From positions 873,477 through 937,476 of the forward strand of contig NZ_BMWT01000002.1 in NCBI RefSeq assembly GCF_014651375.1: 64,000 nucleotides of DNA, written 5' to 3'. The position numbers were made by a program, and so were the translations under genes. The notes beneath the pieces were generated by a model, which saw only the letters and a program-made list of their open reading frames with translations, was not told the DNA's origin and made no database searches. Shown here one piece after another: positions 829 to 20,221 of this stretch. The DNA is from Tateyamaria omphalii. GTDB taxonomy: Bacteria; Pseudomonadota; Alphaproteobacteria; Rhodobacterales; Rhodobacteraceae. The stretch's first letter is position 1, and every line of letters starts with the position of its first letter.

Positions 829-894
829 GCACAACAATTTATACATCGCTTTGTTTTATATAATTAAAAATGTAGAAAACTAAACCTATACCAC

Positions 895-6088: not shown

Positions 6089-7560
6089 TCAGCGGCCTCA
6101 GGCTCAGGCGCGTCTTCCAGTTCCTCACTGAGCGCTTCGATTTCGTCTAGCGCCGCGCGCAGGTGACCCATGATTGCCGCCGCGATCTCATCGGGGTCGG
6201 TCATATCATCCTCAGGATCGCCGCTTTCGTCGCGCAGCCATGACCAGTCGAGGTTGTCACCGCGTTCCGCAATCTGCTCGCGCGTTAGCTTGCGCCAGCG
6301 GCCGTCTTCGCCTTGTTCTTCCCGGTCGGATGCGCCCAACGGATCATCGCCGAAGAGTTCCTCGAATTCTTCAAAGTGCTTGTCGGTCAGTGCATTGGTC
6401 TTGCCGAATGACGGCATGTTGGCGCGAAGGTCGTAAAACCAGACTTCCTTGGTCGCCTGCTTTTTATGATCAGCAGGCATGATTTTCTTGGTCTCACGGC
6501 TGAAGAACATGACGTTGGTTTTGACGCCTTGCGCATAGAAAATTCCGGTCGGGAGGCGAAGGATGGTGTGCAGATTGCAGTTCGCCATCAGGAAGCGGCG
6601 CAGCTCGGTACCGACGCCATTTCCAAACAGAATGTTGTCAGGCATGACGATGGCACAGCGCCCGTGCTGTTTCAGGCTGCGAATAGCGTGCTCCAGGAAC
6701 GGCATCGGGCCGACCCGCTCTCCCGCGGTCAGCGTGAAGTCAGGGCGGTTTACGTTGCCCGACATCTTGTTGAATGGTGGATTGGTGAGGATCACGTCAG
6801 CACGGCCCAACTGGGCACCTTGCGGGGCGCAGCTGTCTTCACATCTCACAATGTTTTCAATGCCATGGAGCAACATGTTCATGACACAGAGCCGGTTCGT
6901 ATCTGGCACCCATTCGTGTCCCACAAAGGCTTGGTGCCGTTGAAAGTGTCCCTCCGCATCTGAAAGCTTAAACAGATCGTCTGTCGCATCCTTGATATAC
7001 TGATCCGCCGCAATGAGAAAGCCACCGGTGCCAGCGGCCGGGTCTTGTATGACCTCACCTGGCTTGGGCTTGATCAGGCGAATGATTGAGTCAATCAGCG
7101 CACGTGGTGTGAAGTATTGACCTGCCTTGGATTTCGTCGCTGATGTCGTCTTCTCGAGGAGGCCCTCGTAGAGATCGCCGAGACCATCCTCCCGAGCAGT
7201 GAACCAGTCAAGCTTGTCGATGTTGGTGGTGAGCGTCTTCAAGTCTTTGGGGAGGCGAAGGTGCGTCATCGCATCCGTGAAGATAGCCAGAGTGACAGGG
7301 TCTTTCGTCTTTTTCGGGTTGCCCAATTCAAGCAACATCGACTTGTAGTACTCGAGCTGATCTCCACCTTCCATCTTGGCGAGTTTGCTCCAGCAATGTC
7401 CGTTTGGAAGCCGGTTCTCTTGTCCGGTTTCCTCCAACATCTTTAAGAAGAGGAGGTATGTCAGTTCGTTGACATAGTTGCTGTAAGACACGCCTGCCGA
7501 CTGGAGCGTCTTGCACTCCTTCCATAGCTTGGCGACGATTTCAGCGGTATTTGGATTCAT
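6085..7560 (-). CDS. hsdM: type I restriction-modification methyltransferase subunit M
   Basis: This 491-residue N6-adenine DNA methyltransferase carries an HsdM N-terminal helical domain (NYVNELTYLLFLKMLEE near residue 30) and the SAM-binding motif I DPAAGTGGF near 170. The catalytic NPPF lies near residue 260, preceded by ADVILT. It methylates the host recognition sequence together with HsdS and forms the core of the restriction complex. The Asp/Glu-rich last 70 residues are not recognised. It overlaps hsdR upstream and the GIY-YIG gene downstream, each by ATGA. Confidence 0.97.
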   Translation of the reverse strand: MNPNTAEIVAKLWKECKTLQSAGVSYSNYVNELTYLLFLKMLEETGQENRLPNGHCWSKLAKMEGGDQLEYYKSMLLELGNPKKTKDPVTLAIFTDAMTHLRLPKDLKTLTTNIDKLDWFTAREDGLGDLYEGLLEKTTSATKSKAGQYFTPRALIDSIIRLIKPKPGEVIQDPAAGTGGFLIAADQYIKDATDDLFKLSDAEGHFQRHQAFVGHEWVPDTNRLCVMNMLLHGIENIVRCEDSCAPQGAQLGRADVILTNPPFNKMSGNVNRPDFTLTAGERVGPMPFLEHAIRSLKQHGRCAIVMPDNILFGNGVGTELRRFLMANCNLHTILRLPTGIFYAQGVKTNVMFFSRETKKIMPADHKKQATKEVWFYDLRANMPSFGKTNALTDKHFEEFEELFGDDPLGASDREEQGEDGRWRKLTREQIAERGDNLDWSWLRDESGDPEDDMTDPDEIAAAIMGHLRAALDEIEALSEELEDAPEPEAAE

Positions 7561-10500
7561 GCGCTCGTTTTCCAGAGTTCTTCGTTAAAGTCTGATAAGA
7601 TGGCTTCTAGCTGGCCATTAAAGACCTTGTTGAGCCGGTTGAAGCCTCCTTGGGCTTGAAATGTACCTTGGTCAATCGCTTCGCGATCAACAACGATCTC
7701 TTGCGCGATCTGATCAGCGATCCTCCGAAGCCAAGTCTTCTGTGGCGAGGTCCAGCTGGCCTTCGAGAGGATGGCTTTTGTCGCAGCCTGCACCCTTTCA
7801 TCAAAAGGTATCAAGGGATCGCCGATTGCTGCCTGGCGAATGAACCCGATGATTGAAGCGGCGATGTCTTCATTGGAGGCGTCGGACCATGCTTTTCTTA
7901 GAGATGTCTCGGAGAAGCCCATCTTGTCAAGCTCCAGACGCAAACTGCGAAGCTGGCCACGGGTAAGGTCGCGTGGACGCTGAACAACAACGTTCAGTGC
8001 GGCGATCTGGTTTTGGTTGTTCTTCACATAGGAGGAGAAAGTGTCGAGAAAGTCCTCTGGTTTCGAGTAGTCACCATAGCCGGTCGTGACAGATCTCATT
8101 TCATCTTCGTGTTCCGAGATCGGGATGAGATTTGGACCCGATCCCTCTGGCTTCCAGTCGAGAATTTTGCCGATGCTCGTGTACTTCTTGGCATATTCAG
8201 CAGTCGCTTTGGGGGATGCATTCCGCAAACGATCTCTGAGCTGTTCAGCCGTTTCGCCGGTAGCTTCAGTCAACGCTTCGTTAATCTTGCTTGGCATATT
8301 CCTAAGCTTGCGGTGCAGTTTTGCCAAAATCTGATCTCGGATGAGCTCTTGTTGCTCGGCTTCTTCCACAACCGCCAACTCGTCAAAGAGCTGCTCAAAC
8401 CTCAATGAAGGGTTGCTTGCAACGGGCTTCATTTGGGTCATGTCCTGAAGCGACGCGTATAGATCAACGGCGTCGAAGATCCTAAAGACGTCCTTCCCAA
8501 TTTCATCACACCGCCGAGTGGCGCGCCCAAGCATCTGCTCATAGAGGATGCGACTGTTTACTCGCCGAATGAAAACAAGATTTGTGATCTTTGGAACATC
8601 GATACCAGTGGTCAAAAGATCGACAGTCACGGCTATCTGAGGGAAAGCATCATTCCTAAAGGACCTGATCAGCTTACCGACTTTATCAACACTGCCTGTG
8701 ATCTTGCGAATAGCTGCGTCTTCGATCTCTCCATATTGTGCTGCAAAGGCCTTCTTAAGCTCCGCAACCACAATATCCGCATGGGCGTCAGTCACAGCAA
8801 AAATGAGGGTCTTACCCTCAAGGCTAGGATCAATGTGCTTAGCGAGCTCCTCCGCAACAACACGATTGAAAGGCTTTGTGATGACCTTTCTGTTGAAAGC
8901 CTCTACCTGAAAGCTCAGCTCGTCAGGTGCAGTAGTTTCGTCGATTTCGCCGGTGCTTGCATCAAGAACTTCCATCGCCTCACCAGCCTCAAACTTGATG
9001 CCTGCGGCGCTCAGGGCCGTCTCAAACCTGGTGGGAGGCTCGTGGTCGATAAGCCAGCCATCCACTACTGCCTCACGGTAGGTATAAGTGTAGATTGGCT
9101 CGCCAAAAATCTGAGCCGTATGAAGGGCCGGAGTCGCTGTCAGCCCAATTTTCACTGCGTCAAAGTACTCTAGCACCCTGCGATACTTGGAAACGTAGTC
9201 GTCCTGACTTCTAAAACTAAGCTCCGCATCCGACATCTCACGGTCCAGCAGATAACCTCGATGGCACTCGTCGATAACCATCAAGTCATACTGGCCAATC
9301 GGCGGGACATCGGCGGGTTCATCGTTGTAGAGGACTCGCTTGACCAAGCCCTGAATCGTGCAGATGTGAACGCGGGTTTCAGGGTCCGGCTTAATGTCTT
9401 CTAGCCCCTTGATGCCAAACAACTGACCAAACGTCTTTGGCCCTTCGATGGCCGTGCTCATGAATTCGTCACTGGTTTGTGTACCGAGAGCAGATCGGTC
9501 GACCACGAAGCAAACCCGTCGAAACCGCTTAGTCGACAAGAGGCGGTAAAGCATGGCTATAGCTAGCTTGGTTTTGCCGGTACCAGTCGCCATTGCCACA
9601 AGCATTTCGCGCTGTTCTGTTGAAAGGGTCTCTTCAACTTTCTGAATCGCCGCCTTTTGGTAGGGCCTCAATTGGAAGCCGAAGTCAAAACTACGCGCCT
9701 TGAGTGCTTCTTGCGCCGCTTCTTTCTCGACCTCCATTTGCGAGGCAAGTTCATCAGGCGTGAACCAATCCATTAGAGCACGTCGATGGTTCTGTGCACG
9801 CCTTGCATCTCGGAACCAAATACCGCTCTCGGTCTCGACTTGCTTCAGGTAAGGCCGAGCATTGGTCGCAAATAGAAACGGAACTCGGAAACGTTCATCC
9901 CAAATCTGAGCGCTCCCTTGTGCGCCAAAACCTGCCGAGTATCGCTCAGCTTGGTCAATGGCGGCCGAAACGTTCTTTCTGTAACGCTTGGCCTCCACGA
10001 TGCCGAGGCAAACTTCTCCAACAAAAAGGGCGTAATCGGCTGGTCCGTGCTCCGTCGGCCACTCAGCAATGGCCATGTTGCGGCCTTTGACTGGACGGGT
10101 TCCTTTGGAATGACGGAGCTCGATACTATCGGCTTCCCAACCTCTATCTCTTAGCTGCTGATCAATCAAAGCGCGTGTGGACTGTTCGTCCAGGTCAATC
10201 GCCCCATCAGCAGACATTGACGCTGACAGAAATGCGCTTTGCTCGAGCTTGTCGTCTTTGGAAGCTTTCGAGACGAAGTCGTTCAGATTGGCTTCTGCCT
10301 CTTGGGCCAAAGCCTCCCAAATACGACGCTCTTCTGCCTCGCGATTGGCTCGCTCAGATGCCGTTTCTGCTGCCCTCTGCGCAGCTTGCTCCGCCTCGGC
10401 CGCTTTTTGGGCTGTTGAAATTGCGTCATTACGCTCTGCCCGCAGCCTATCGATCTCATTTCGGAGCTCTACAACCACCTGTTCAGGAGCGGTAGGCGGC

Positions 10501-10910
10501 AAGAAAGGTGGAACTTTGAATGTGCTGTCCCTGGTGGCAGACCTGACATGCCACACCCCGAGCTGTACGCACATTTTGAGCGCTGTTAGTGCCTGCCGAT
10601 GATTTCCTTTGCCTCGGTGAACTGCCTCGTTCCCAAGTTTCCGGATGTGGTGAAGAACATCTAAGACTCGTTCTGGTGCTGCACGTTCGAATTTCAGCGT
10701 GCGCAGTAATTCAGATTGAGACTCCCCGGCTTCAAATTCGATCCCTGCCTTAGCCGCATGACGTTGAGTTAAATGCTCACAGAACTGGCGGAGTTTAATA
10801 ATTGAAGTGCTAGGATCGTCATGGAAGTAGCTCTCAGCGAGGCGGCCCAAATTGACCAATTGCTCGTCAAGAATATCGAGAAATTGAAAATTGCTTTCGG
10901 TTGCATTCAT
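7557..10910 (-). CDS. hsdR: type I restriction endonuclease subunit R
   Basis: This 1117-residue motor and nuclease subunit is the first gene of the operon. The N-terminus resembles DUF4145, followed by an Ala/Glu/Arg-rich coiled coil at about 150-215. The PD-(D/E)XK nuclease follows at about 265-305 (ADYALF, then GIVEAKR). The DEAD-like helicase starts with LRPYQKAAI and Walker A MATGTGKT near 435; Walker B is DECHRG and motif III ATPALHT. The second RecA domain has [12 protein letters not shown], and the end resembles the EcoEI-type R C-terminal domain. All motor and nuclease motifs are intact, so restriction is probably functional. No strong ribosome-binding site precedes the ATG. Confidence 0.96.
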   Translation of the reverse strand: MNATESNFQFLDILDEQLVNLGRLAESYFHDDPSTSIIKLRQFCEHLTQRHAAKAGIEFEAGESQSELLRTLKFERAAPERVLDVLHHIRKLGNEAVHRGKGNHRQALTALKMCVQLGVWHVRSATRDSTFKVPPFLPPTAPEQVVVELRNEIDRLRAERNDAISTAQKAAEAEQAAQRAAETASERANREAEERRIWEALAQEAEANLNDFVSKASKDDKLEQSAFLSASMSADGAIDLDEQSTRALIDQQLRDRGWEADSIELRHSKGTRPVKGRNMAIAEWPTEHGPADYALFVGEVCLGIVEAKRYRKNVSAAIDQAERYSAGFGAQGSAQIWDERFRVPFLFATNARPYLKQVETESGIWFRDARRAQNHRRALMDWFTPDELASQMEVEKEAAQEALKARSFDFGFQLRPYQKAAIQKVEETLSTEQREMLVAMATGTGKTKLAIAMLYRLLSTKRFRRVCFVVDRSALGTQTSDEFMSTAIEGPKTFGQLFGIKGLEDIKPDPETRVHICTIQGLVKRVLYNDEPADVPPIGQYDLMVIDECHRGYLLDREMSDAELSFRSQDDYVSKYRRVLEYFDAVKIGLTATPALHTAQIFGEPIYTYTYREAVVDGWLIDHEPPTRFETALSAAGIKFEAGEAMEVLDASTGEIDETTAPDELSFQVEAFNRKVITKPFNRVVAEELAKHIDPSLEGKTLIFAVTDAHADIVVAELKKAFAAQYGEIEDAAIRKITGSVDKVGKLIRSFRNDAFPQIAVTVDLLTTGIDVPKITNLVFIRRVNSRILYEQMLGRATRRCDEIGKDVFRIFDAVDLYASLQDMTQMKPVASNPSLRFEQLFDELAVVEEAEQQELIRDQILAKLHRKLRNMPSKINEALTEATGETAEQLRDRLRNASPKATAEYAKKYTSIGKILDWKPEGSGPNLIPISEHEDEMRSVTTGYGDYSKPEDFLDTFSSYVKNNQNQIAALNVVVQRPRDLTRGQLRSLRLELDKMGFSETSLRKAWSDASNEDIAASIIGFIRQAAIGDPLIPFDERVQAATKAILSKASWTSPQKTWLRRIADQIAQEIVVDREAIDQGTFQAQGGFNRLNKVFNGQLEAILSDFNEELWKTSA

Positions 10911-10960
10911 TCAAACAGGATTGCTTAAAATCCATTCTGAAACAAGCCAATAGCGTGCGC

Positions 10961-11524
10961 TCAACCTATCTCCACATTGCGCTCCACATCGTCCCAATGC
11001 ATGTTAACCGGAAGCGTCCTAGCTCTTTGCTGAATGTCTTGGATCGTTACAGGAACATATCCCCACACATCTACGCCGACATTCACCGCGTTTCTGCTCC
11101 CCATCCATTGATCGTGGACATGTCCAAAAAGTTGCAACGCACCCTTCCGCGCCCTGTGCCAGGTGATCATCGGATAGTGGCAGAGAACCGAAGGCGCTCC
11201 CTTTCCATCGGAGACTTCGGTGAGTTGGGTCACTGAGGTCCATGGCCACTCCTGGGTCGCCTCGCCATCATGGTTGCCAATAACCAAATGCTGCTCTTTC
11301 CCGGGCAGGCGGGCAAAGAGGTTGGTCAACCATTTACGGTCCTTGGCCTTGGGACCAAACGCGAAGTCGCCGACCACCCACAGGGCGTCATCTGGACCGA
11401 CCATGGACGCCAGATTTTCCATCAACACGGCGTCCATGTGGCTCGCTGACTGGAAAGGGCGATTGCAGTGCTTGATGATGTTGTCGTGACCGAAATGCGT
11501 GTCGGCTGTGTACCAATGTTTCAT
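10961..11524 (-). CDS. calcineurin-like metallophosphoesterase
   Basis: This 187-residue protein has the metal-binding blocks of the superfamily in order: DTHFGHDNI (D-x-H), VVGDFAFG (G-D), IGNHD (G-N-H-D), LCHYP and LFGHVHDQW (G-H-x-H). The size is that of small stand-alone phosphoesterases often found on phages and mobile elements. The substrate cannot be told. Its ATG overlaps the stop of the 65-residue gene before it (ATGA), and it is the last gene of the operon that begins with the ParA-like gene. Confidence 0.9.
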   Translation of the reverse strand: MKHWYTADTHFGHDNIIKHCNRPFQSASHMDAVLMENLASMVGPDDALWVVGDFAFGPKAKDRKWLTNLFARLPGKEQHLVIGNHDGEATQEWPWTSVTQLTEVSDGKGAPSVLCHYPMITWHRARKGALQLFGHVHDQWMGSRNAVNVGVDVWGYVPVTIQDIQQRARTLPVNMHWDDVERNVEIG

Positions 11525-11718
11525 TGCCTGAAATTCCGCGTAGGTGGTGGCCGCACGCCGGGCGGATACACATCTTTCGTGCCATCAGGATGAAGGATGA
11601 TTGTCTGGCCATTTTCCCAATAGATCACCGGAAACCCAGCGGCCAAAGCCTCATCCACTGCTTTAGTTGTCGCTTCCCCCACGATCTTATCCAGTTCGCT
11701 CAGCGTCATCATTCTCAC
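11521..11718 (-). CDS. small protein of unknown function, 65 aa
   Basis: This is a short acidic N-terminal helix (SELDKIVGEATTKAVDEALAAG) followed by a beta-rich, proline-ending tail with WENGQTIILHPDG. No known family was recognised. The GTG start is preferred because AGGGG lies eight bases before it; ATG codons two and three positions later are alternatives. It is coupled to the phosphoesterase by an ATGA overlap, which supports it being a real gene. Confidence 0.65.
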   Translation of the reverse strand: MRMMTLSELDKIVGEATTKAVDEALAAGFPVIYWENGQTIILHPDGTKDVYPPGVRPPPTRNFRQ

Positions 11719-11736
11719 TGTTTTTGCCCCTAGGTC

Positions 11737-12303
11737 TCAAACGTTCTCGGCTTGGGCCGCGACGAGCAAACTGTCGATTTCAGCTTTCAAAGCATCGGTA
11801 CGCTCCCGATAGCCTTTCGCCCAGGCGTTCATCCCGATGAAGGCGGAGACCAGTAACACAACTGCGTAGATCTGGAAGCCTGTTCCTGTGAAGGCGGCAT
11901 CCTGAAGCCCGAACGGCTCAGCCAGGGCTCCCCAGACAAACAACCCTGGCAAAGCCAAGACGATAGCCGCGACGACTGCGCCGCCCAGAATTGAACTAAT
12001 GGATGTGCTGGTCTTCAGTTCCTTTGCATCTTGCACCCAGTTGCTCGTGAAGTTTGCGAATGCAACGGGCCTGCCGGACGTTCGTTTGATCACGACAGCA
12101 ACGTCATGGCCGGGCTGCGCAGCGCCGAATAGGTCGCCAGAGTATCGGTGTTCAGTGCCACCTTCATCGCGGAGCCAGAGTTCCGGCGTCGTGCGGATAT
12201 TGCCGTAGCCAGTTTTTCGATCCACGCGGACGGACTCCATTCGATCCTTGGTCGCGGTGACAGTGCCTCGGACCAAGACAAGCTGTCCTGTTGCGCTGGT
12301 CAT
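11737..12303 (-). CDS. two-helix membrane protein of unknown function
   Basis: This is a 188-residue protein. Residues 1-85 look like a beta-rich domain (LVLVRGTVTATKDR, YGNIRTTPELWLRDEGG, YSGDLFGAAQPGHDVAVV), resembling an OB or SH3-like fold. Two hydrophobic segments follow at about 105-130 and 143-160, then a short helical tail. Its ATG overlaps the ParA-like gene's stop (ATGA). No family was recognised. It may tether the neighbouring ATPase or phosphoesterase to the membrane, but this is only suggested by the operon. Confidence 0.7.
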   Translation of the reverse strand: MTSATGQLVLVRGTVTATKDRMESVRVDRKTGYGNIRTTPELWLRDEGGTEHRYSGDLFGAAQPGHDVAVVIKRTSGRPVAFANFTSNWVQDAKELKTSTSISSILGGAVVAAIVLALPGLFVWGALAEPFGLQDAAFTGTGFQIYAVVLLVSAFIGMNAWAKGYRERTDALKAEIDSLLVAAQAENV

Positions 12304-13100
12304 GTTGGGAGTAGCTCAGCGAGCTTGTGCAACGGCAGAGGGTGGCGTCGTGCCTTCGGGTGTCGAGGACGTAGCTCATAGCCGTCGAGCGCCAGCATAA
12401 CCTCGTTCACAAGCTTTCTGAGCTCGCTTTGCATCGCATAGATTGGACGCAGGCTTGGGATACGCGATGCAAGCGGCTCACCTTGCGGTTCGATAGCGAA
12501 TTTCATGCACATGTGTGGCACGTGTCCGCCTATCGAAATTTCGGAAAGGATTTCGCTTTCTGGCAGCCCATGCTGAAGCAATCGACCGACCGTGAAGGCG
12601 GCAGAAACGGCGCGAGCTTGGCTGTCGTCAAAAGCATGCCCGCAACGCAGGCCGTAGATAGGCGCGCGGACATCAAGCGGGTCCAGTGCGACCGAAATCC
12701 TCTGAGCCGCAAGGGCGTCCATGAAAGGCGAGAGAATTACATCGGCATGGTCGGCTGCCGCCAGATCAAGATCATCAAGGCGCGCGCTGGTATCGATTAG
12801 GACCGGGGATCGCATGAGCGGGCCTTTGTCCGCTTCGGCCTGGATGATACGCGCCAGTTCTTCCCTCGTCGCGGCCTGCCGATATTCGATCTGATCTTCC
12901 TTGACGCCACAGCGCTGCATCATGCGATGCCAAATGCTCAGGGTGGATCCACGACGGCAACCCGCGATTTCACGTGAGGCGTCGATCACCAGAGGTCGAT
13001 AGCTGCCCGTGTCCACGATGGCCGATGCAAGCGCCATGACTGCCGTTGTGCGTCCAGCGCCGCCTTTGGGCGCGAGAAATGTGATGACATGGGGTTTCAT
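12300..13100 (-). CDS. ParA/MinD-like ATPase
   Basis: This 266-residue P-loop ATPase has a deviant Walker A, KGGAGRTT, at residues 12-19 and RPLVIDASREIAGC in the next strand. VLIDTSARLDDLDLAAADHADVILSP has the shape of the Walker B and switch region of ParA proteins. The ATG at 13100 was chosen because MKPHVITFLAPKGGAGRTT is the usual ParA N-terminus. No ParB-like partner or parS repeats were seen; the next genes are a membrane protein, a 65-residue protein and a phosphoesterase. It may serve partition of an excised form or belong to an accessory function of the element. Confidence 0.82.
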   Translation of the reverse strand: MKPHVITFLAPKGGAGRTTAVMALASAIVDTGSYRPLVIDASREIAGCRRGSTLSIWHRMMQRCGVKEDQIEYRQAATREELARIIQAEADKGPLMRSPVLIDTSARLDDLDLAAADHADVILSPFMDALAAQRISVALDPLDVRAPIYGLRCGHAFDDSQARAVSAAFTVGRLLQHGLPESEILSEISIGGHVPHMCMKFAIEPQGEPLASRIPSLRPIYAMQSELRKLVNEVMLALDGYELRPRHPKARRHPLPLHKLAELLPT

Positions 13101-13138
13101 AAGACGAATGTATCTTAAAACAGGTAGAGTTAAAACCG

Positions 13139-13161
13139 ACAAACGGCAGTTTGCTGTTTGT
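13139..13161. promoter_or_regulatory. dyad operator between the ParA-like and XRE genes
   Basis: An almost perfect inverted repeat has arms CAAACGGCA (13140-13148) and TGCTGTTTG (13152-13160) around GTT, with one mismatch and one further matching base on each side. It overlaps the start of the XRE gene. Controller proteins of restriction systems bind such sites to regulate themselves. Between it and the ParA-like gene, TTAAAAC occurs twice, 15 bases apart. Confidence 0.55.
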
Positions 13162-13402
13162 GAAAAGAACGCCAAGAAGTGAACTAAGAGACGTACTTGC
13201 GCGAAACCTTCGTCTTTTTCGAGCCGAGGTCGGATGGTCGCAGGAACGTCTTGCACATGAAGCAGGTCTGAACCGGACTTACTTGAGTGCGGTTGAGCGG
13301 TCAGAACAAAATATCTCAGTGGACAATATTGCTCGGCTGGCGGCCGCAATGAGGGTCGACGCTTGGACGCTATTAAGAGATAAAGACGCGGAAGCAGGCT
13401 AA
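13160..13402 (+). CDS. XRE-family regulator, controller-protein-like
   Basis: This 80-residue protein is almost entirely one Cro/C1 helix-turn-helix: LARNLRLFRAEVGWSQERLAHEAGLNRTYLSAVERSEQNISVDNIARLAAAM. The size and the ERG-like turn are those of the C proteins that time restriction-modification gene expression. The GTG at 13160 is preferred over the TTG at 13151. Neither has a clear ribosome-binding site, so the message may be leaderless. It stands in front of a PD-(D/E)XK-like gene, divergent from the ParA operon, with a dyad at its own start; self-regulation and control of the next two genes are likely. Confidence 0.85.
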   Translation: MKRTPRSELRDVLARNLRLFRAEVGWSQERLAHEAGLNRTYLSAVERSEQNISVDNIARLAAAMRVDAWTLLRDKDAEAG

Positions 13403-13410
13403 GGCACGCA

Positions 13411-13905
13411 ATGTCAAAGTTCGCAAACGTCGAACAACTATCCGTGTCGGATTTGCTGTCACTACACGCGCGCATCAGCGAGAGTCTTCGTGATCGAGGT
13501 GTCGTCCGGAGCGCCAATAATCCAACTGGTGACCTAGCCGAATATCTCTTTTGCAAGGCGTTTGACTGGGAACAAGCACCAAATTCCGAACGCGGCTTTG
13601 ATGCGACCGGTAGGGACGGTTTACGCTTTCAAATCAAAGGTCGACGAATCCACCGCCGGAACAAGTCGCGGCAACTTTCGGCTATCCGCAACCTGCCAAG
13701 CAGACCATTTGACGTTCTCGCAGGTGTACTCTTTGACGATGAATTCAAAATCAGACGCGCTGCACTCATTCCATTTGAAGTTGTCGAGCGTCGTGCAAAG
13801 TACGTCGCCCACACTAACAGCAGCAAATTCATGCTCCAAGACGATGTTTGGGATATTGAAGGTGTGATTGATGCTACCGAGAAGCTGAAGCTAGCGATGC
13901 CCTGA
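13411..13905 (+). CDS. PD-(D/E)XK-like nuclease-fold protein, unknown role
   Basis: This is a 164-residue protein. The pattern GDLAEYLFCKAF (E44), RGFDAT (D64) and RFQIKGRR (Q74-x-K76) fits the restriction-endonuclease fold: helix Glu, strand Asp, then Q-x-K in place of E-x-K. A strand-rich second half follows (FDVLAGVLFDDEFKIRRAALIPFEVV). The motif resembles small DUF6998-type proteins, which are of unknown function. It begins eight bases after the XRE gene, and its TGA shares a base with the ATG of the next gene. Nuclease activity is inferred from the motif and the Gln variant leaves it open. Confidence 0.7.
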   Translation: MSKFANVEQLSVSDLLSLHARISESLRDRGVVRSANNPTGDLAEYLFCKAFDWEQAPNSERGFDATGRDGLRFQIKGRRIHRRNKSRQLSAIRNLPSRPFDVLAGVLFDDEFKIRRAALIPFEVVERRAKYVAHTNSSKFMLQDDVWDIEGVIDATEKLKLAMP

Positions 13906-14792
13906 TGGAAAGAAGATATTTCTGGACGAAAGTATGGGGTGCCCCTGATGTTCCAAAGCATGATGCCTTGGCATTTAATCATGAGAGAACCCGCGATGAT
14001 GTTTTGGCCAACAGCATACCCGGCGATATTGTTGTTTTCCTAACCAGTGACGCAACTGAAGCTGACGCATTGATGCGCGGAAGAGTTGCGGGCGCAGTTG
14101 AGATCGCGGACCCACCTGAGCCGATAATGGTTGAGCCATTGCGCGGAAACAGAAGTCGCCCTGAAGACTTCAGGAGCGACGGGCGTTTTCGATGGCCATT
14201 CGGGATCACTGTATCCCGGACATGGCGAGTGATTGATCAGGAAGCAAATGACGCGCTGGTACCTGACCATGCCTCTAAGGGCATTCAGGGAGCGGCAACG
14301 ATCCACGCAATGCAGCCTCTTGAAATACAACGTTTCCGTCGCTTGCGCGTTGTGGAACAAGTCGATGGCGAAAAAGCAGATCGGCAACCATTCTCCTCGT
14401 CGTTACGACGTCCATGGCGACAAAAAGCAGGACCACGGTCGGGTTCGTTAGTTAATCCCGGTACTCAGCTCTACGTAGCCGTTATTTCCGATGATGCCGG
14501 TATGACGTTCAAGGTGGGTTCTGGCAAAGCCAACGAACGGTTGGCCGAACTCAATCGCTATCGCAGACCCTCACAAGGCGAAGTACTTTGGTCACTATAT
14601 CAGGATTGGGATTTCGCAACGGTCGAAGCAGCACGAACGGCCGAGGATCACTTACTGGGGCGAGCGAAAGAGATGGGTTGGGGGTCCGAGGATCATAGCG
14701 AATTCATAGTTGGTATTGGAATGTCAGAACTGGCTGAGCTGTTTTCAGAAGCCGTTGATCTCGGAGCAACACAGGACGAGGCGAACGCATAA
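13905..14792 (+). CDS. two-domain protein: EVE/PUA-like N-terminus and GIY-YIG/T5orf172-like C-terminus (tentative)
   Basis: This 295-residue protein is not recognised as a whole. Residues 1-115 (RYFWTKVWGAP, SIPGDIVVFLTSD, MRGRVAGAVEIADPP, RWPFGITVSRTWRV) have the strand order of EVE/PUA-like domains, which read modified bases. Residues 185-280 (LYVAVISDD, FKVGSGKANERLAELN, AARTAEDHLLG, SEFIVG) resemble the T5orf172 form of GIY-YIG nucleases: the K-V-G, the Arg and the Glu are present, while the Tyr positions are not clear. Coupling to the PD-(D/E)XK-like gene (TGATG) suggests a joint system, possibly against modified DNA. This is inference; no homologue was identified. Confidence 0.6.
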   Translation: MERRYFWTKVWGAPDVPKHDALAFNHERTRDDVLANSIPGDIVVFLTSDATEADALMRGRVAGAVEIADPPEPIMVEPLRGNRSRPEDFRSDGRFRWPFGITVSRTWRVIDQEANDALVPDHASKGIQGAATIHAMQPLEIQRFRRLRVVEQVDGEKADRQPFSSSLRRPWRQKAGPRSGSLVNPGTQLYVAVISDDAGMTFKVGSGKANERLAELNRYRRPSQGEVLWSLYQDWDFATVEAARTAEDHLLGRAKEMGWGSEDHSEFIVGIGMSELAELFSEAVDLGATQDEANA

Positions 14793-14816
14793 GACACGAC
14801 AGCCACGTGCAAGACT

Positions 14817-16499
14817 TTACGGCTCAAAGGTCTTTCTGGGTTGTGCTTGTCCAACTGGCCGATTTAGCCGCTTTTGATCCGGCTGGCGGATGCTTCGAGG
14901 TTCGCGATGCGGTGCCTCAACTCGCTGCTGCTTTGGACCAAAGCTTCCGTCCAGCGCGCTTGATGCCCGTGATCGTTCAAGGATTTCATCCAGCAGTTCA
15001 ACAGCTCTTGTTGCAATTTCGCCGATGCCAGCACGCAGCTTGTCAAGTCCGATGAGAAATTTGCGCTGGTCTTCCTCAAGAGAGCTTCGCAGCGTTTCAA
15101 TTCGGCTTCCGAGCGCTCCAAAGCGGCTACGGATTGTTCGCAGGTAGCGGTCAACTCTTCTACGCAACCCAACAATTCTTTTTCCAGAGGCGTTAGCATC
15201 TATCGGCTCTCCCTTGGTGATTTCACGCAAACGCTGCCTGACCTTGACCGCAGCGGACATGGCACGACTTCGCTGCCTGGAGGGTGCCGAAACACCTGAC
15301 CAATTCCGCCAAGGCCAGTGGTAACTTCCACCCTCGGCGTTGACGGAACCGAGGTTTGTGGAGGTTGCGATGGAAGGAGCATCAAGGCAATCAGGACGCC
15401 CATGATGCCGCTGATCATGGCTCCGACCATCATTGGAGCCAGCAGCGTCAGTATCCCATCCCTGATCCAACCGATCCGCACTTGCTTCATCAGGTCGGCG
15501 GCCGTTTCTGCTTTTTCTGTCCAGCGTTCGCAGTTCTGGATCTGGAGCAATATCCGCTGGTCCAACGTCGTTGTTAGGGCGTCGATATCTTGAGAGGTTG
15601 TACGCAGCGCGTTTGTCGAAAGCTCTTTGATATCTTTGGTGAAGTTCTCCAGCTCCGAAGCCAGCGAGTCGAGCTGAAGGTCTGCGCTCTCCGCCATCTT
15701 CTGACGCAAGCGCTGCTTCAACTGTTGTTTCGACGGTCCATTTTTCATCGAAAATCGCCCCTTTCAAACGAAACCGCTCCTTGCTTTCAGGGTCAAACGC
15801 AGTGATGTACTTCTTTCCCAGGCGCGGCGTCTCCCAGCCCATCTCGTGCATAGCAACGACCAGCGTAGAACGGTCGACGATCAGGCCTTCTTCGACCAGC
15901 TCGAAGAGCTGTTCATGCAAGCCCTCTCTGGTCTTCGCACGAGTTGGAGCCTCGACTGTGATCTTGGCGTCTTGCTGCCGCTTTGGATCGCGTGGATCGG
16001 CCCAAGAGTGCCTGTGGTTCAGCATATCCGCGAGGGCATCGAACTGCGGTTGGTGTCCCGGCCTCGCTATGTTCATGCTGTTGCCACTCGTGAGCTCTTG
16101 CCTTGGGACAACGAAGTGAAGTTCGACACGATCCATATGGGAGTGAGATACCCACAAGCAGTCAAATTGGTGGTCTTGCAGTCCAGCGAAAGCCAGCTCC
16201 TCAAAGAGCTGCATTACTTCGCGCTGCTGTTGATCAGTTGGAGCGTCTTCGCGTGCAAATGAGACCACACCTGATGTGTAAGTCCATTTATGTCGGCACG
16301 TATCGATGAGATGGATAGTGCGTTCAGGGTCACCGGCTAGAACCTCTGGGCGAGGGGAACGGTTGACCATTTTGGGATAGCCGTCATCACCGTAAATCAC
16401 GTCTCGATTATTGTCGTATGCGACGACCTCGGTTGCGACCAGATATTGAACTGGTCCCGCCCCACCGCCTTTCCCGTTTGAGAAGAAACGGATCATCAT
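14817..16499 (-). CDS. relaxase of the ColE1 MbeA family
   Basis: This is a 560-residue protein. The start MMIRFFSNGKGGGAGPVQYL, then TYTSGVVSFA near residue 76 and LWVSHSHMDRVELHFVVPRQEL near 118, align by eye with MbeA of ColE1. The signature there is His...Glu-Leu-Asn; here it reads His...Glu-Leu-His. The enzyme nicks the transfer origin and pilots the strand in conjugative mobilization. After about residue 280 the sequence turns low-complexity because two other genes (15200-15748 and 14864-15199) use the same DNA in another frame. Its ATG overlaps the mobC stop. Confidence 0.88.
   Translation of the reverse strand: MMIRFFSNGKGGGAGPVQYLVATEVVAYDNNRDVIYGDDGYPKMVNRSPRPEVLAGDPERTIHLIDTCRHKWTYTSGVVSFAREDAPTDQQQREVMQLFEELAFAGLQDHQFDCLWVSHSHMDRVELHFVVPRQELTSGNSMNIARPGHQPQFDALADMLNHRHSWADPRDPKRQQDAKITVEAPTRAKTREGLHEQLFELVEEGLIVDRSTLVVAMHEMGWETPRLGKKYITAFDPESKERFRLKGAIFDEKWTVETTVEAALASEDGGERRPSARLAGFGAGELHQRYQRAFDKRAAYNLSRYRRPNNDVGPADIAPDPELRTLDRKSRNGRRPDEASADRLDQGWDTDAAGSNDGRSHDQRHHGRPDCLDAPSIATSTNLGSVNAEGGSYHWPWRNWSGVSAPSRQRSRAMSAAVKVRQRLREITKGEPIDANASGKRIVGLRRRVDRYLRTIRSRFGALGSRIETLRSSLEEDQRKFLIGLDKLRAGIGEIATRAVELLDEILERSRASSALDGSFGPKQQRVEAPHREPRSIRQPDQKRLNRPVGQAQPRKTFEP
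14864..15199 (-). CDS. MbeD/MobD-like mobilization protein, nested in the relaxase gene
   Basis: This is a 111-residue, almost wholly helical protein. Its start, LTPLEKELLGCVEELTATCE, resembles the MbeD/MobD family (…ELEKQLL.AL..L…). It lies entirely within the relaxase gene in a different frame, and its ATG follows the stop of the mbeB-like gene directly (TAGATG). The nested position is as in ColE1, where mbeD helps entry or mobilization. The position and the family resemblance support each other. Confidence 0.72.
   Translation of the reverse strand: MLTPLEKELLGCVEELTATCEQSVAALERSEAELKRCEALLRKTSANFSSDLTSCVLASAKLQQELLNCWMKSLNDHGHQARWTEALVQSSSELRHRIANLEASASRIKSG
15200..15748 (-). CDS. MbeB-like mobilization protein, nested in the relaxase gene
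   Basis: This 182-residue protein is read in a second frame within the relaxase gene. It has an N-terminal coiled coil (about 5-85: SLASELENFTKDIKELSTN, ERWTEKAETAADLMKQV) and then one or two membrane segments (about 98-125: LLAPMMVGAMISGIMGVLIA). The end is poor in structure. A helical N-terminus followed by a membrane anchor is the build of MbeB of ColE1, which brings the relaxosome to the membrane. A well-formed transmembrane protein in the alternative frame argues that the nested gene is real. Confidence 0.75.
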   Translation of the reverse strand: MKNGPSKQQLKQRLRQKMAESADLQLDSLASELENFTKDIKELSTNALRTTSQDIDALTTTLDQRILLQIQNCERWTEKAETAADLMKQVRIGWIRDGILTLLAPMMVGAMISGIMGVLIALMLLPSQPPQTSVPSTPRVEVTTGLGGIGQVFRHPPGSEVVPCPLRSRSGSVCVKSPRESR

Positions 16500-16951
16500 T
16501 GCGCATCCTCCCGACCACTGATTTCGAGCAGCTCAGCCATTCGACGATCAATTGCGACTAAGGCTGCAATCATCGCAGTTGTTTCCATTTGTCGGATGCT
16601 TGACCGGCGAGATAGCTCCTCCCGCGCTTTGCTGGCAAGTTGCTGGACGTCACGGGTTGTTCGCCCCACGGCGCGTGCGATGTCTGGCTCTATTGTTGGC
16701 ATCGGCTTTCGACGCTTGGCATCCGCCAGCCCAAGCGCCTCGCGCAGCAATTGAGACGCCGACACGCCGGCAGCGTCTGCCTTGGCTTTGATCTCGGCTT
16801 TCTCCGTCTTGGTGCAACGAAGATCGACCTTCTCTGACAGCATTTCTTCATTGGAACCGGTCTTTTCGGTGGGGTTGGTAGGGGAGGCGCGCCTCCCATG
16901 CCTGCCCGCGTCGCCAGACGTGGGTACACTTGCTGTCTTTTCATTACGCAC
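16496..16951 (-). CDS. MobC/MbeC mobilization accessory protein
   Basis: This is a 151-residue protein. The middle part, EKVDLRCTKTEKAEIKAKADAAGVSASQLLREALG, is the ribbon-helix-helix-like core of MbeC/MobC proteins, which open DNA at the transfer origin for the relaxase. Its stop overlaps the relaxase start (ATGA), which is the mbeC-mbeA order of ColE1. GTG is the apparent start, and an ATG inside is possible because the first 35 residues look disordered. It overlaps the preceding HTH gene by eight bases. Confidence 0.85.
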   Translation of the reverse strand: MRNEKTASVPTSGDAGRHGRRASPTNPTEKTGSNEEMLSEKVDLRCTKTEKAEIKAKADAAGVSASQLLREALGLADAKRRKPMPTIEPDIARAVGRTTRDVQQLASKAREELSRRSSIRQMETTAMIAALVAIDRRMAELLEISGREDAQ

Positions 16952-17702
16952 GATGTCGCCCTCTAACTGCTACACCATCGCCAAATTGCCTTTCAAGAAG
17001 CCAACGCGCATAGGCCTCAACCCGAGCGAGCGTCTGTGGGTAACTCGGTACCCACCGATAAGGCCACAACAGCCCCGTTTTCCCACCTTCGGTGACACCC
17101 ATCGCGAGAACTTGGATTGGCGGCAAATTCCACTCGGCCAGCTTCTGATCCCAATCGAAAAGTTCGTCAGTCATGTCTTCAGAAATGAATCTTAAAGACG
17201 TGACTGGATGCGCCGAATTTCGTTGATCTGCATTTCCGTCAGAGTCCTTCTTCTGGTTAGGATTCTGGTTATTATAGAAAGGCTCATCCGTGATCTCTTG
17301 AAAGCCCTTCCTTGATCCTTTGGATGCCGGGGAATGTGCGTCTAAAGGATCGTCGGTGGACTTTTGAGACATCTCGTCATGGCAATCTGGTACCGTCTCC
17401 AGCGTGGTCACTTTTTCTGGCCAGCGAAGCCGGTACTTTGTGAATTGGCCAGTACCTCGGCCATCTGTTCGCTCGAGCCAACCAGCGGTCTCGAGCTCCA
17501 GAATTCCCCTCTTGACGGAAGAGACTGAGTAGCCAGAAACGGTCGCAATTTTCGGGACGGCTGGACACATCAAACCCGTCTTCTTGTTCCGAAAACGGAG
17601 CGCAAGGACGATGCCGATAATCCGAGCACAACTGCTCAGCCGCGCGGTTACTAGCAACGTACTCCAATGAGCGTGATGGGGAGAATTAGACATGCCGAGC
17701 AT
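16944..17702 (-). CDS. helix-turn-helix protein, possibly replication-related
   Basis: This 252-residue protein can also start at 17693 (MSNSPHH). Residues 20-105 carry a winged helix of the HTH_36 type: IGIVLALRFRNKKTGLMCPAVPKIATVSGYSVSSVKRGILELETAGWLER. A Ser/Asn-rich linker follows, and then a C-terminal block with DELFDWDQKLAEWNLPPIQVLAMG and YARWLLERQFG. Such proteins are common on plasmids and integrative elements as replication or regulatory proteins. The sequence does not decide between these. It heads the mob operon, and a dyad (17716-17739) lies just before its start. Confidence 0.65.
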   Translation of the reverse strand: MLGMSNSPHHAHWSTLLVTARLSSCARIIGIVLALRFRNKKTGLMCPAVPKIATVSGYSVSSVKRGILELETAGWLERTDGRGTGQFTKYRLRWPEKVTTLETVPDCHDEMSQKSTDDPLDAHSPASKGSRKGFQEITDEPFYNNQNPNQKKDSDGNADQRNSAHPVTSLRFISEDMTDELFDWDQKLAEWNLPPIQVLAMGVTEGGKTGLLWPYRWVPSYPQTLARVEAYARWLLERQFGDGVAVRGRHRA

Positions 17703-17715
17703 GCATGGCGGCTGA

Positions 17716-17739
17716 TTGTGGCAAACATGCATGCCACAA
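17716..17739. promoter_or_regulatory. perfect dyad before the HTH gene
   Basis: The arms TTGTGGCA (17716-17723) and TGCCACAA (17732-17739) are perfect inverted repeats with an eight-base spacer containing ATGCA. It lies 14 bases upstream of the HTH gene start. It could be an operator for that protein, or part of a transfer or replication origin of the element. Confidence 0.5.
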
Positions 17740-17820
17740 CCGCTCTGGTTTAATGAAGGTCTGCAAGGCAATTCCTCTCTGTTGACCAAAAGCGATTGGT
17801 GCTCCGGGCCGCAATGTCGA

Positions 17821-17849
17821 TTGTACTTCGCGGAGAAATTCGCTATCTT
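17821..17849 (+). promoter_or_regulatory. candidate sigma70-type promoter for a small RNA
   Basis: TTGTAC at 17821-17826 and TATCTT at 17844-17849 are 17 bases apart. The promoter points right, against the flanking minus-strand genes. It is followed within 60 bases by a terminator hairpin. Confidence 0.35.
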
Positions 17850-17854
17850 GCAGT

Positions 17855-17900
17855 GGTCGAGACTACGAGCGAAGCCCTGCGAAAGCGGGGTTTTGTTTTT
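17855..17900 (+). ncRNA. candidate short antisense RNA
   Basis: A transcript starting about six bases after the candidate promoter would be some 45 bases long. It would end at the hairpin CCCTGC-GAAA-GCGGGG (17875-17890) with TTTTGTTTTT behind it. It would be complementary to the leader of the HTH gene. Short counter-transcribed RNAs of this kind control rep genes on plasmids. No sequence match to a known RNA was recognised; the call rests on layout only. Confidence 0.35.
17875..17900 (+). terminator. rho-independent terminator on the plus strand
   Basis: A six-pair stem closed by a GAAA loop is followed by TTTTGTTTTT. There is no annotated plus-strand gene in front of it, which is the main hint of a small RNA here. 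Confidence 0.55.
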
Positions 17901-18106
17901 CAAGCGACCTGGGTGGTCTGCACCGTGTTTTCGTCGATCCAGTCGTTAAGCGCTTCTCCACTGTATTTCACGCACCTGCCCATCTTGATGTAGGCGGGTC
18001 CAAATCGGCGATGTCGCCATTGGGCACGTTTTTCCTTCGAACCAATGACGTCCAGCTCAAGGTCATCATCGTCATACAAATGTTCTGGATCAAAGAACTC
18101 AGCCAC
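17900..18106 (-). CDS. AlpA/excisionase-like DNA-binding protein
   Basis: This is a 68-residue protein. Its second half, RRFGPAYIKMGRCVKYSGEALNDWIDEN, is the MerR-like helix-turn-helix of AlpA and phage excisionase proteins. These often control the integrase of P4-type elements. The GTG start has a strong AAGGAGGGG about five bases before it. It is divergent from an XRE gene, and the two share a 110-base control region. Confidence 0.8.
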   Translation of the reverse strand: MAEFFDPEHLYDDDDLELDVIGSKEKRAQWRHRRFGPAYIKMGRCVKYSGEALNDWIDENTVQTTQVA

Positions 18107-18133
18107 GGCTGCCCCTCCTTAGTTTTGTTTCGC

Positions 18134-18190
18134 TTGCGTAGATTCATACTTGCGCAATCACACTTGTGAATAATAAAATGCAATTGCGTA
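18134..18190. promoter_or_regulatory. shared control region with repeated TTGCGYA
   Basis: TTGCGTA occurs at 18134-18140 and 18184-18190, TTGCGCA at 18150-18156, and a related TTGTGAA at 18164-18170. These sit between the divergent AlpA-like and XRE genes, so they are candidate operator half-sites for one or both regulators. Confidence 0.4.
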
Positions 18191-18216
18191 ATTTATTACT
18201 CAATTCAGGAGCTCAA

Positions 18217-18831
18217 ATGGCTGAATTCTTCTTTGGTGGGCGTACACAGGCGGAGAAAGATGAGAATGCTAGGCTTGAAGAGCTGCATCAGGCAGAAGAT
18301 GACCGGCTGACCCAAGAGCTTATCGATCAAAGCAAGTTCGAACATCGCCTGGCAAGGCTTCGACCTCACCTAGGCTTGGCTCGCATGCGCTCAGAACTCG
18401 GTATTTCGCAAGAGAAGATGGCGCAGATCTGTGGCGTGACCCGACGAACCTACCAATTCTACGAAGGTGGCGAAAAGGCCATTCCAAGCAATGTGTTATG
18501 CAGGCTTGGGGCGACATATGAATTTGACATGCACGAGTTGTTTGCTGGAAAGCCGCATTCCAACAACTTGCATGTCCACGCCAGGACGGCCGAAGTCACT
18601 GCCGCCGTCGTGCTTCACCTCATCGACAAATTCCCACGTATGGAAATGGATGAAATGCAGCGGATCGCTATGGAGTTCGCGAGAACCCATCGGGGTGCTG
18701 GACGGCTTTCGACAGCTGACCTGATCGAGTCGATCCACATTGTGACGGGCGAAAAATACGTGGAGCTTGAGAAATCTTACTTTGAAGTGACTGGCGAACT
18801 CAGCAGCGACTACATGGAAGAAGACACGTAG
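18217..18831 (+). CDS. XRE-family transcriptional regulator of the element
   Basis: This is a 204-residue protein. A charged N-terminal helix (about 10-45) precedes a Cro/C1 helix-turn-helix at about 55-110 (LGLARMRSELGISQEKMAQICGVTRRTYQFYEGGEKAIPSNVLCRL). The C-terminus is not recognised. The ATG at 18217 is chosen because AGGAG lies six bases before it; upstream codons lack a site. It is divergent from the AlpA-like gene, and its 3' end overlaps the convergent integrase gene by 22 bases, so it probably controls excision. Confidence 0.85.
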   Translation: MAEFFFGGRTQAEKDENARLEELHQAEDDRLTQELIDQSKFEHRLARLRPHLGLARMRSELGISQEKMAQICGVTRRTYQFYEGGEKAIPSNVLCRLGATYEFDMHELFAGKPHSNNLHVHARTAEVTAAVVLHLIDKFPRMEMDEMQRIAMEFARTHRGAGRLSTADLIESIHIVTGEKYVELEKSYFEVTGELSSDYMEEDT

Positions 18832-19985
18832 GTGCTCCACTCGGACAAGAGTTTCCGCCGTTTCTCAAGCAAATCGCTTCTGGCGTATGCGCGCTCAACC
18901 TCACTCCCGACCTGATGCGCCAAGCTCATTTCAGCAAGTTCGCGGCTGTAGCCAGGTTGCTCGGTCGCCCAATCCCTAAATGTCGACCGAAAACCGTGAA
19001 CGGTGATGCCCTCAACTTTCATGCGGCGCAGCAACATTAACATGGACATATTGGACATGGGACGATGCCGTTTCTGACCTTCGAAAACGACATCTGATCT
19101 CAAAGCTTTGAGCGGCTCGATTATCGTAAGCATCTCCGCTGTCAGCGGAACACGATGCTCTTGATCTGCCTTCATGCGCTCAGCCGGAACGGTCCAAAGC
19201 TTCTGATCGAAATCAAACTCCTCCCAGCGGGCGTTCAAAACCTCGCTGGTACGGCTCGCCGTCAAACAGGTGAACATCAGCGCTTTTGCCGCCATGGCGT
19301 CTTTCGTTGCAAGCTGTGCGTAGAAGTCGGGAACATCCTTCCAGCTCATCGCCTTGTGGTGCTGCACCTTCTGTTTGACCTGCGGCAGAACGCGCGCGTC
19401 TCGGATCGTTGTCACGGGGTTCTCGCCATCTCTGAAACCTTTGGATTTCGCTACGTCCAGAACAGCTTTGATCCGCTGCGCAAGGCGCTTGGCCGTTTCG
19501 TGTTTCTCGGTCCAAACCGGAAGCAGGACTTGTAACACCTCCGGCTGGCCAACCTCTGAGACAGGGAGCCGTCCGATCTTTGGGAATGCGTACTCGGCAA
19601 GTGTATTGATCCATTGCTGACCGTGCTTCGGATTCTTCCAGGTCGGCAGGCGCTCGATGTGAACTTGTCGCGCGATCTCTTCGAAACATGGGATTTCTTG
19701 CCGTCCATTGTATCTTGGGTTGATGCCTCGCTTCGCCAACCGCCGATATTCCAAGGCGCGGTCACGTGCTTCATTCAGGGTTACGACGTCCGCGCCGCCA
19801 AGTCCGAAGTCGGTCCGCAAGGGCTTGCCTTCACGGTTGCGCTGGCCCTTCACTGTGACACGTACAATCCAGCGCCTCGCGCCGGATGGATCGACCACAA
19901 GGTACAAGCCGCTCCCGTCGCCGTGGCGACCAGGGCCGAGGGTTCGCACCAGATTCTTCGTCAACTTTCCGCTCAGAGCAGCCAT
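18810..19985 (-). CDS. P4-type tyrosine recombinase/integrase
   Basis: This is a 391-residue protein. The N-terminal arm-binding domain (LTKNLVRTLGPGRHGDGSGLYLVVDPSGARRWIVR) is of the DUF4102 type. The catalytic domain shows TASRTSEVLNARW (Arg), HGFRSTFRDWA (His-x-x-Arg) and, near the end, LAHQVGSEVERAYARS with the second His and the Tyr nucleophile. All catalytic residues appear present. It inserts the element at the tRNA-Ser 3' end, whose repeat lies 147 bases upstream of its start. Confidence 0.95.
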   Translation of the reverse strand: MAALSGKLTKNLVRTLGPGRHGDGSGLYLVVDPSGARRWIVRVTVKGQRNREGKPLRTDFGLGGADVVTLNEARDRALEYRRLAKRGINPRYNGRQEIPCFEEIARQVHIERLPTWKNPKHGQQWINTLAEYAFPKIGRLPVSEVGQPEVLQVLLPVWTEKHETAKRLAQRIKAVLDVAKSKGFRDGENPVTTIRDARVLPQVKQKVQHHKAMSWKDVPDFYAQLATKDAMAAKALMFTCLTASRTSEVLNARWEEFDFDQKLWTVPAERMKADQEHRVPLTAEMLTIIEPLKALRSDVVFEGQKRHRPMSNMSMLMLLRRMKVEGITVHGFRSTFRDWATEQPGYSRELAEMSLAHQVGSEVERAYARSDLLEKRRKLLSEWSTYVSSSM

Positions 19986-20131
19986 AAAATACCACGTTTT
20001 CTACCACGCAACGAATAGAAATGAGTCTAATCGAAGAAAACTCAATAGCAACAACCAATGCGTATAAATCAACAAAAACAGCCCCATAGGGGGCCATAAA
20101 GCACCCAACGCAATTGAGTGAAAATGGTGGG

Positions 20132-20221
20132 TGGCGGAGACGAAGGGATTCGAACCCTCGAGACCCTTCCGGGCCTACTCCCTTAGCAGGGGAGCGCCTT
20201 CGACCACTCGGCCACGTCTCC
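20132..20221 (-). tRNA. tRNA-Ser (anticodon GCT)
   Basis: On the minus strand the 90-base sequence begins GGAGACG and ends CGTCTCCGCCA, so the acceptor stem pairs and CCA is encoded. The anticodon stem CTCCC/GGGAG encloses CTGCTAA, giving anticodon GCT. The long variable arm is typical of class II serine tRNAs. The T arm contains GGTTCGAAT. Its 3' end serves as the integration site of the island. Confidence 0.97.
20133..20148. repeat. right attachment repeat, inside the tRNA-Ser 3' end
   Basis: This is the second copy of the 16-base repeat found at 813-828. It covers the 3' acceptor strand and the outer part of the T arm. The tRNA stays complete after integration. Confidence 0.85.

Follow-up and report, generated by a model that had tools for sequence, protein, structure and literature searches.

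A stretch of 64,000 nucleotides from Tateyamaria omphalii (contig NZ_BMWT01000002.1, positions 873,477 to 937,476; called the window below, and all coordinates refer to it unless a locus is named) carries a compact row of three genes, here P1, P2 and P3. Judged from its sequence, P2 is a nuclease of the BisI family, whose members depend on 5-methylcytosine (5mC) or 5-hydroxymethylcytosine (5hmC), and P3 is a putative modification-dependent nuclease composed of an EVE-like and a GIY-YIG-like half. The explanation that we favour, with modest confidence, is that the row represents a methyltransferase-free, modification-dependent restriction cassette with two complementary nucleases, carried on an island at a tRNA-Ser gene. 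A modification-dependent restriction unit had been one suggestion of an earlier inspection of the letters alone (the sequence-only reading), and it is the best reading of the row.

The three open reading frames (ORFs) of the row at 13139-14792 follow each other in tandem on the plus strand, as had been read before. The frame of P1 (13151-13402) is open from a TTG at 13151 and offers a GTG at 13160 as alternative start; we prefer the latter as candidate start, so that the gene would span 13160..13402. P2 (13411-13905) encodes 164 amino acids and P3 (13905-14792) encodes 295. The last two genes overlap in a TGATG at 13903-13907 of the same strand, consisting of the P2 stop codon (TGA, 13903-13905) and the P3 start codon (ATG, 13905-13907). 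This overlap, previously interpreted as coupling, is real and suggests co-expression of both genes, which may well be coupled translationally.

The family assignment of P2 is carried by similarity over its whole length. Residues 6-163 match the PADLOC model mREase_II (type II methyl-directed enzyme) at 1.7e-62, and among PDB sequences P2 matches Eco15I_Ntd at 1.3e-29 and NhoI at 9.6e-22. A match to DUF6998, at 7.1e-4, lies below the cut-off. Roles of catalytic and methyl-reading residues in the BisI family were taken from the accessible part of a structural paper (PMC11347163). Using the printed HMMER alignment and counting, we find E44, D64 and Q74-I75-K76 of P2 aligned with the catalytic Glu50/Asp/QVK of NhoI, and N36, R78, Q88, S90, R93 and H134-T135 in the methyl-reading places. 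H134-T135, R93, R78, Q88 and S90 match NhoI His139-Val140, Arg101, Arg84, Gln96 and Ser98, respectively. The pair H134-T135 represents the (H/R)(V/I/T/M) motif for the internal methyl group, and the pocket arginine is kept. In the related enzyme Pam7902I, whose mutated residues we matched to P2 by motif, changes of E39, D59 and K74 abolish cutting and a change of Q72 merely weakens it, according to the available text of PMC8281217. Cleavage by P2 and its specificity for GCNGC are predicted from these likenesses. The sequence-only reading had described a PD-(D/E)XK-like protein keeping E44, D64 and Q-x-K of a restriction fold; the residues are at these very positions and the protein belongs to the PD-(D/E)XK restriction nucleases. 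What fell is the view that it was unrecognised, as the three matches place it in the BisI family, and the idea of P2 as a new PD-(D/E)XK family was rejected. No P2 relatives were found in viral_contigs.

A type II restriction-modification (R-M) system was rejected as well: none of P1, P2 and P3 matches a methyltransferase model, and HsdM (6085-7560) belongs to a type I operon.

P1 is a protein of the XRE type (HTH_3, 7.3e-12), whose best PADLOC match is Control_protein at 2e-17. Its closest PDB entry is the general transcriptional regulator 3vk0 (9.9e-19); C.BclI (2.1e-12) and C.AhdI (1.3e-8) come next. On account of these two C proteins the earlier description of P1 as controller-like is fair, although 3vk0 scores better; by sequence similarity it stops short of proven membership among the C proteins. 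A dyad noted at the first gene is present at 13139-13161 as ACAAACGGCA-GTT-TGCTGTTTGT, with arms of 10 base pairs (bp) and one mismatch, and makes a candidate operator at the start of P1. Position 13139 is the left end of this dyad, with no start codon there. The dyad is the sole one of its kind in 13080-13420, and among 1000 dinucleotide-shuffled versions of 13100-13180, 6 contain a comparable one. Because 38 such dyads occur in the window of 64 kilobases (kb), its role as P1 operator is suggestive, not compelling. Timing by a controller protein had also been proposed. The controller-like regulator stands, but timing in the R-M sense does not suit a unit without cognate methyltransferase, in which the role of P1 would have to be the limiting of self-damage.

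An XRE gene adjoining nuclease genes could also belong to a toxin-antitoxin-like unit, with P1 as an antitoxin-type regulator and P2 and P3 as nucleases directed against the host. Two BisI homologues on Mesorhizobium plasmids (loci L134 and L137; gathered loci are cited by such numbers) directly follow an annotated HipA-domain gene, which ends one base before their start and is confirmed by Pfam in L137. We consider such a unit very improbable here. The pockets with which BisI enzymes read methyl groups are preserved in P2, and the host is without a PF00145 gene; P1 scores 61 bits against the PADLOC control-protein model and 31 bits against the Y4mF antitoxin model, the two models coming from different libraries.

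The domain composition of P3 emerges at the level of its family. As a single query, P3 found matches in 8 of the 148 genomes of relatives (E up to 0.01, own genome included), and a profile of nine rows gave, at 1e-10, 27 matches in 26 of the 390 genomes searched from the order, again with the own genome. Twenty-four of the family members gathered were chosen for an alignment (A9). In the C-terminal half of this alignment Y190, K203, G205, R212, A243, E247 and E266 are invariant, with E266 only nearly so when 23 members are realigned; in the N-terminal half G40 and W107 are invariant, and D41 and R105 nearly. At E up to 1, T5orf172 is matched by 19 of the 24 members (best 8.1e-8), MUG113 by 12 (best 3.6e-7) and EVE by six, P3 itself not among them (best 3.6e-4). 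The proteins of L034 and L031 pass the curated Pfam cut-off for T5orf172 (eight proteins scanned). Both T5orf172 and MUG113 are families that we take to be of the GIY-YIG type, and the best PDB matches of the P3-family profile, 1zg2 (0.0042) and 1ywl (0.0083), are presumably GIY-YIG proteins too. A GIY-YIG domain resembling T5orf172 and MUG113, with Y190, K203, G205, R212 and E247, is in this way supported by the family for residues 185-270 (14457-14714, plus strand). An EVE-like or PUA-like candidate reader is weakly supported, likewise by the family, for residues 1-150 (13905-14354, plus strand), where the invariant G40 and W107 and the EVE matches of the six members fall. The third protein had been read as EVE-like joined to GIY-YIG-like, and this holds at family level, from relatives and profile rather than from structure.

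An N-terminal part like that of P3 is also found in proteins of 554 and 559 amino acids (L033, 2877-4541, and L089, 3350-5029), where the match ends near residue 155 of the query or profile; the C-terminus of the L033 protein reads as HNH-like. Neither P3 nor its relative from L034 had relatives in viral_contigs, and alignments A4, A5, A6 and A7 found none there either; alignment A3 found four loci, two of them full length. In plasmid records P3 had no match at 1e-5, and at E up to 10 it matched nine records, five of which we took as relatives (two from Sinorhizobium, the others from Thioclava, Xanthobacter and Ancylobacter). Its matches in phages, to three records, are at chance level only.

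In the cassette that we propose, P2 would act like NhoI and Eco15I: as a homodimer it would recognise 5mC or 5hmC in double-stranded GCNGC, with no flipping of the base, and cleave within the site. P3 would be produced together with P2 through the overlapping genes; its EVE-like domain would flip out a modified base to recognise it, and its GIY-YIG domain would cut nearby. Jointly, both enzymes would act on a wider range of modified phage DNA than a single enzyme could. P1 would bind the dyad at its own start and keep both nucleases low. Should P2 and P3 act together, sensors of modification that read the duplex and sensors that flip the base would be united in one operon, and the cassette would become a test bed for EVE–GIY-YIG proteins.

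Genes of restriction systems are abundant around P3 relatives. We gathered 36 P3 loci; the gene picker placed the P3-family gene in 34 of them (not in L028, where it is annotated, and not in L035), and after the near-copy L027 was dropped 33 loci were left. HsdM, HsdS or HsdR genes were named by reading near the P3 relative in L025 (there also backed by profile), L030, L034, L070, L071, L074, L075 and L089; in L034 the P3-family gene reads as lying directly upstream of HsdR. An Mrr enzyme is near the P3 relative in L079 according to Pfam, and by likeness in L077 and L078, and a Mrr_cat enzyme is encoded directly upstream of it in L026. The operon of L072 and L073, whose P3 relatives are 66% and 65% identical to P3, encodes a C5-cytosine methyltransferase (1.3e-81), Vsr (5.9e-32) and EcoRII (3.2e-66; Pfam run on L072 only). 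Because cells with this operon should make C5-methylcytosine, it is improbable that the P3 clade attacks plain 5mC wherever it occurs; a different cytosine modification, or a different sequence context, is the likelier target. For comparison, 20 control regions were chosen from the same genomes. At 1e-10, 299 PADLOC families were matched among 125 proteins neighbouring P3 relatives and 20 among 77 control proteins, and one HsdS model matched 8 of the 125 and 0 of the 77, among the matches listed. Because some loci depend on each other (L083, L084, L085 and L087 are close kin) and the families named for the neighbours are the first 25 only, we read this as a direction rather than a ratio. In L032, L068 and L101 the P3-family gene lies between or beside genes that look phage-structural by reading.

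A family that adjoins type I, EcoRII, Mrr and, in the window, BisI genes behaves like a portable add-on, and P3 could accordingly be an accessory, the EVE-like part of which senses modified phage DNA while the GIY-YIG part nicks or processes DNA for the neighbouring restriction enzyme. Bell et al. proposed, in the part of their paper available to us, that a type I system with a stand-alone EVE protein next to it is thereby enabled to attack modified DNA (PMC7641849). We nevertheless think such an ancillary role unlikely: residues of nuclease type are invariant in the P3 family, and by reading no restriction gene lies in the few kb inspected around the P3 relatives in L032, L068, L069 and L029.

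The same neighbourhoods admit a broader proposal, which we put forward tentatively: the P3 family may be a portable anti-modification module used with many restriction classes, which in the window forms a two-reader cassette together with BisI. An EVE-like reader with its GIY-YIG nuclease would then be bolted onto type I, EcoRII/Dcm/Vsr, Mrr, BisI and probably IIG operons, and would stop phages that escape the neighbouring enzyme through their base modification. In the window, BisI would read 5mC in the duplex and P3 a flipped base of another kind. The occurrence of the P3 family beside several restriction classes would then tell how bacteria patch restriction against modified phages.

Relatives of P2 were found in 9 of 385 genomes of the class and in 4 of the 148 relatives. 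Among 72,556 plasmid records 120 have one, and in 30 of these the coverage reaches 80% or more in a single place; the matches in two genomes (G203 and G436) are weak and contain stops. P3 has matches in 2 of the 385 class genomes, the one outside its own genome being N-terminal only. Both proteins together are found solely in the own genome of the window, in the class set as well as among the 148 relatives. We examined 25 BisI loci, 9 + 2 from genomes and 14 from the 120 plasmid records, together with about 3-5 kb on either side wherever the record extended that far. A BLAST search with P2 of the 36 P3 loci, covering picked, non-overlapping ORFs only, gave one match, to a DUF6998 protein of L080 (2.3e-6). 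The exact pair was thus not found beyond this locus among the class genomes, the relatives, the 25 BisI loci and the 36 P3 loci, and conservation of the XRE/BisI/P3 triple was rejected for the genomes and loci searched. The sequence-only reading had proposed a search for conserved co-occurrence and had itself named a pair confined to this locus as a finding against it.

A looser arrangement does come back. In at least 2 of the 33 loci, L080 (3.2e-48) and L076 (2.3e-46), the P3-family gene is immediately preceded by a DUF6998 gene; the DUF6998 gene of L076 was spotted by eye and confirmed by Pfam, so that others may be missed. The Eco15I-like protein of L017 is matched by DUF6998 as well (3.1e-9). 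Given these genes upstream of P3-family members and the likeness of DUF6998 to the L017 protein and to P2, BisI-like nucleases and P3-family proteins are loosely paired more than once. The regulator, too, has counterparts. By BLAST, a P1-like protein is present in 1 of the 25 P2-homologue loci, L017 on an E. coli plasmid, whose nuclease reads like an Eco15I chain, and annotation or reading places an XRE-like gene upstream of the BisI gene in L014, L095 and L099. The order in L014, from a Roseinatronobacter plasmid, is an XRE gene, a gene for a 247-amino-acid protein with an HNH match below the cut-off (0.0031), and a BisI gene that shares 70% identity with P2. Its layout is like that of the window and its companion is different, which is telling.

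Several results weigh against a cassette of two cooperating nucleases. Compared alone with Pfam (E up to 1), NCBIfam and PADLOC, P3 matched no model, and its isolated C-terminal half matched T5orf172 at E 0.18 only. The best N-terminal PDB match of the P3-family profile is 1wmm (UPF0310), which we take to be an EVE protein, at E 1.8. Comparison of the P3 family with EVE proteins of relatives (seven ORFs) by hhalign gave a probability of 8.5%, as against 0.05-0.31% for controls, a weak result that leans towards EVE without proof. Models of P3 are poor, with a mean predicted local distance difference test score (pLDDT) of 35 from the single sequence and 40 from three rows, and a PDB fold search with the three-row model had no match at E 0.001. 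The activities predicted for P2 and P3 come from sequence alone. Control regions carry defence matches as well (PglX, BrxF, MTase_II and mREase_IV, one protein each). No PF00145 gene was found in the host genome at E 0.001, which fits the cassette and is no evidence for it; this absence says little because 69 of the 148 relatives and 4 of the 9 other genomes with P2 matches have one. Finally, no P3-family gene is present in any of the 25 BisI loci, and among the four relatives most similar to P3, two (L029 and L069) have no P2 match in their surroundings.

The absence of P3-family genes from the 25 BisI loci would fit a P2 that is sufficient on its own as BisI enzyme, with P3 as an independent defence gene that had landed behind it by chance and no partnership between them. 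P3 relatives adjoin many other genes, many BisI homologues, by reading and without a count, have no obvious partner, and on the Roseinatronobacter plasmid another protein, which matches HNH weakly, takes the place of the companion. Such independence is nonetheless doubtful in our view, considering the TGATG overlap with the co-expression it suggests, the repeated order of XRE gene, companion and BisI gene in L014 and, by reading, in L095, and the DUF6998 genes immediately ahead of the P3-family genes of L076 and L080, together with the DUF6998 match of the L017 protein.

The proposed restriction cassette lies within an element whose ends can be recognised. A repeat of 16 bp at 813-828 exactly repeats the 3' end of tRNA-Ser, and its right copy (20133-20148) is inside the 3' end of that gene (20132-20221); an ORF that reads as integrase-like (18810-19985, minus strand) adjoins this repeat at the tRNA-Ser end. 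The defence-carrying element of the sequence-only reading is backed by both the repeat and the integrase-like ORF, and an integrative tRNA-Ser island at 813-20148 carrying a type I R-M system, a PtuA-like pair and the BisI unit is supported. The type I operon contains HsdS (3600-5240), HsdM (6085-7560) and HsdR (7557-10910). Between HsdM and HsdS it includes a DUF4357 protein (5162-6088; DUF4357 1.7e-14), which also matches the PADLOC candidate PDC-S14 at 1.4e-116 and has a GIY-YIG-like start by reading. The PtuA-like ATPase (1.8e-41 to PtuA) is accompanied by an HNH-like partner. In the window (7557-11524) HsdR is followed by a small metallophosphatase-like gene, and the same succession is read in L034 (5659-9693). 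A relaxase-like gene, below the Pfam cut-off, is located behind P3 at 14817-16499. Divergent from the cassette is a ParA-like gene (12300-13100, minus strand; Pfam matches below cut-off), paired with a partner gene at 11737-12303. This pair (11737-13100) resembles the one at 1430-2787 of L014, the ParA-like proteins being 37% identical over 145 columns (1.5e-14) and the partners 27% (3.2e-13), and in both places the pair diverges from the XRE/BisI cassette.

Parts of the proposed cassette are familiar. BisI itself is already characterised, and EVE–GIY-YIG fusions were listed in 2020 by Bell et al. with predicted modification-dependent nucleases (PMC7641849, accessible part). For the combination of BisI, controller and EVE–GIY-YIG proteins no description was found in the literature searched, subscription journals being largely outside reach, and the same search yielded no characterised EVE–GIY-YIG protein. 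The earlier remark that the combination was not recognised as a named defence system stands to this extent, but its second protein is of the known BisI family.

With BisI, NhoI and Eco15I (type IIM/IV) P2 shares similarity over the whole length, the PD-QxK active site and the methyl-pocket residues, its methyl motif being HT instead of the HV of NhoI and Eco15I. As far as the sources consulted in part show, the BisI gene adjoins an inactive C5 methyltransferase gene (PMC4926085) and Eco15I has an extra C-terminal HNH domain (PMC8281217), whereas in the window an XRE gene precedes P2 and a second candidate nuclease gene overlaps it. P3 resembles the predicted EVE–GIY-YIG fusions of Bell et al., as these appear in the available part of that paper, in uniting EVE-like and GIY-YIG parts in one protein and in its defence surroundings; its EVE match is very weak. 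With EVE-HNH (VcaM4I) and SRA-HNH (TagI) enzymes P3 shares the logic of a PUA-superfamily reader joined to a nuclease, as outlined in the accessible text of PMC12707154. Their nuclease is HNH, whereas that of P3 is GIY-YIG-like. Another GIY-YIG-like comparison is R.Hpy188I, in which we know of no reader domain. According to partial views of the sources, it is a type II enzyme of TCNGA (PMC4081073) with an active site of the Y-K-R-E type, lysine replacing the second tyrosine (PMC2630997); Y190, K203, R212 and E247 of P3 are the same residue kinds as its Y63, K73, R84 and E149, by motif and not by alignment. In the order of its genes, finally, the window is like type II R-M systems controlled by C proteins, since a regulator similar to C.BclI and C.AhdI is placed ahead of the nuclease gene, and differs from them in being a unit without methyltransferase.

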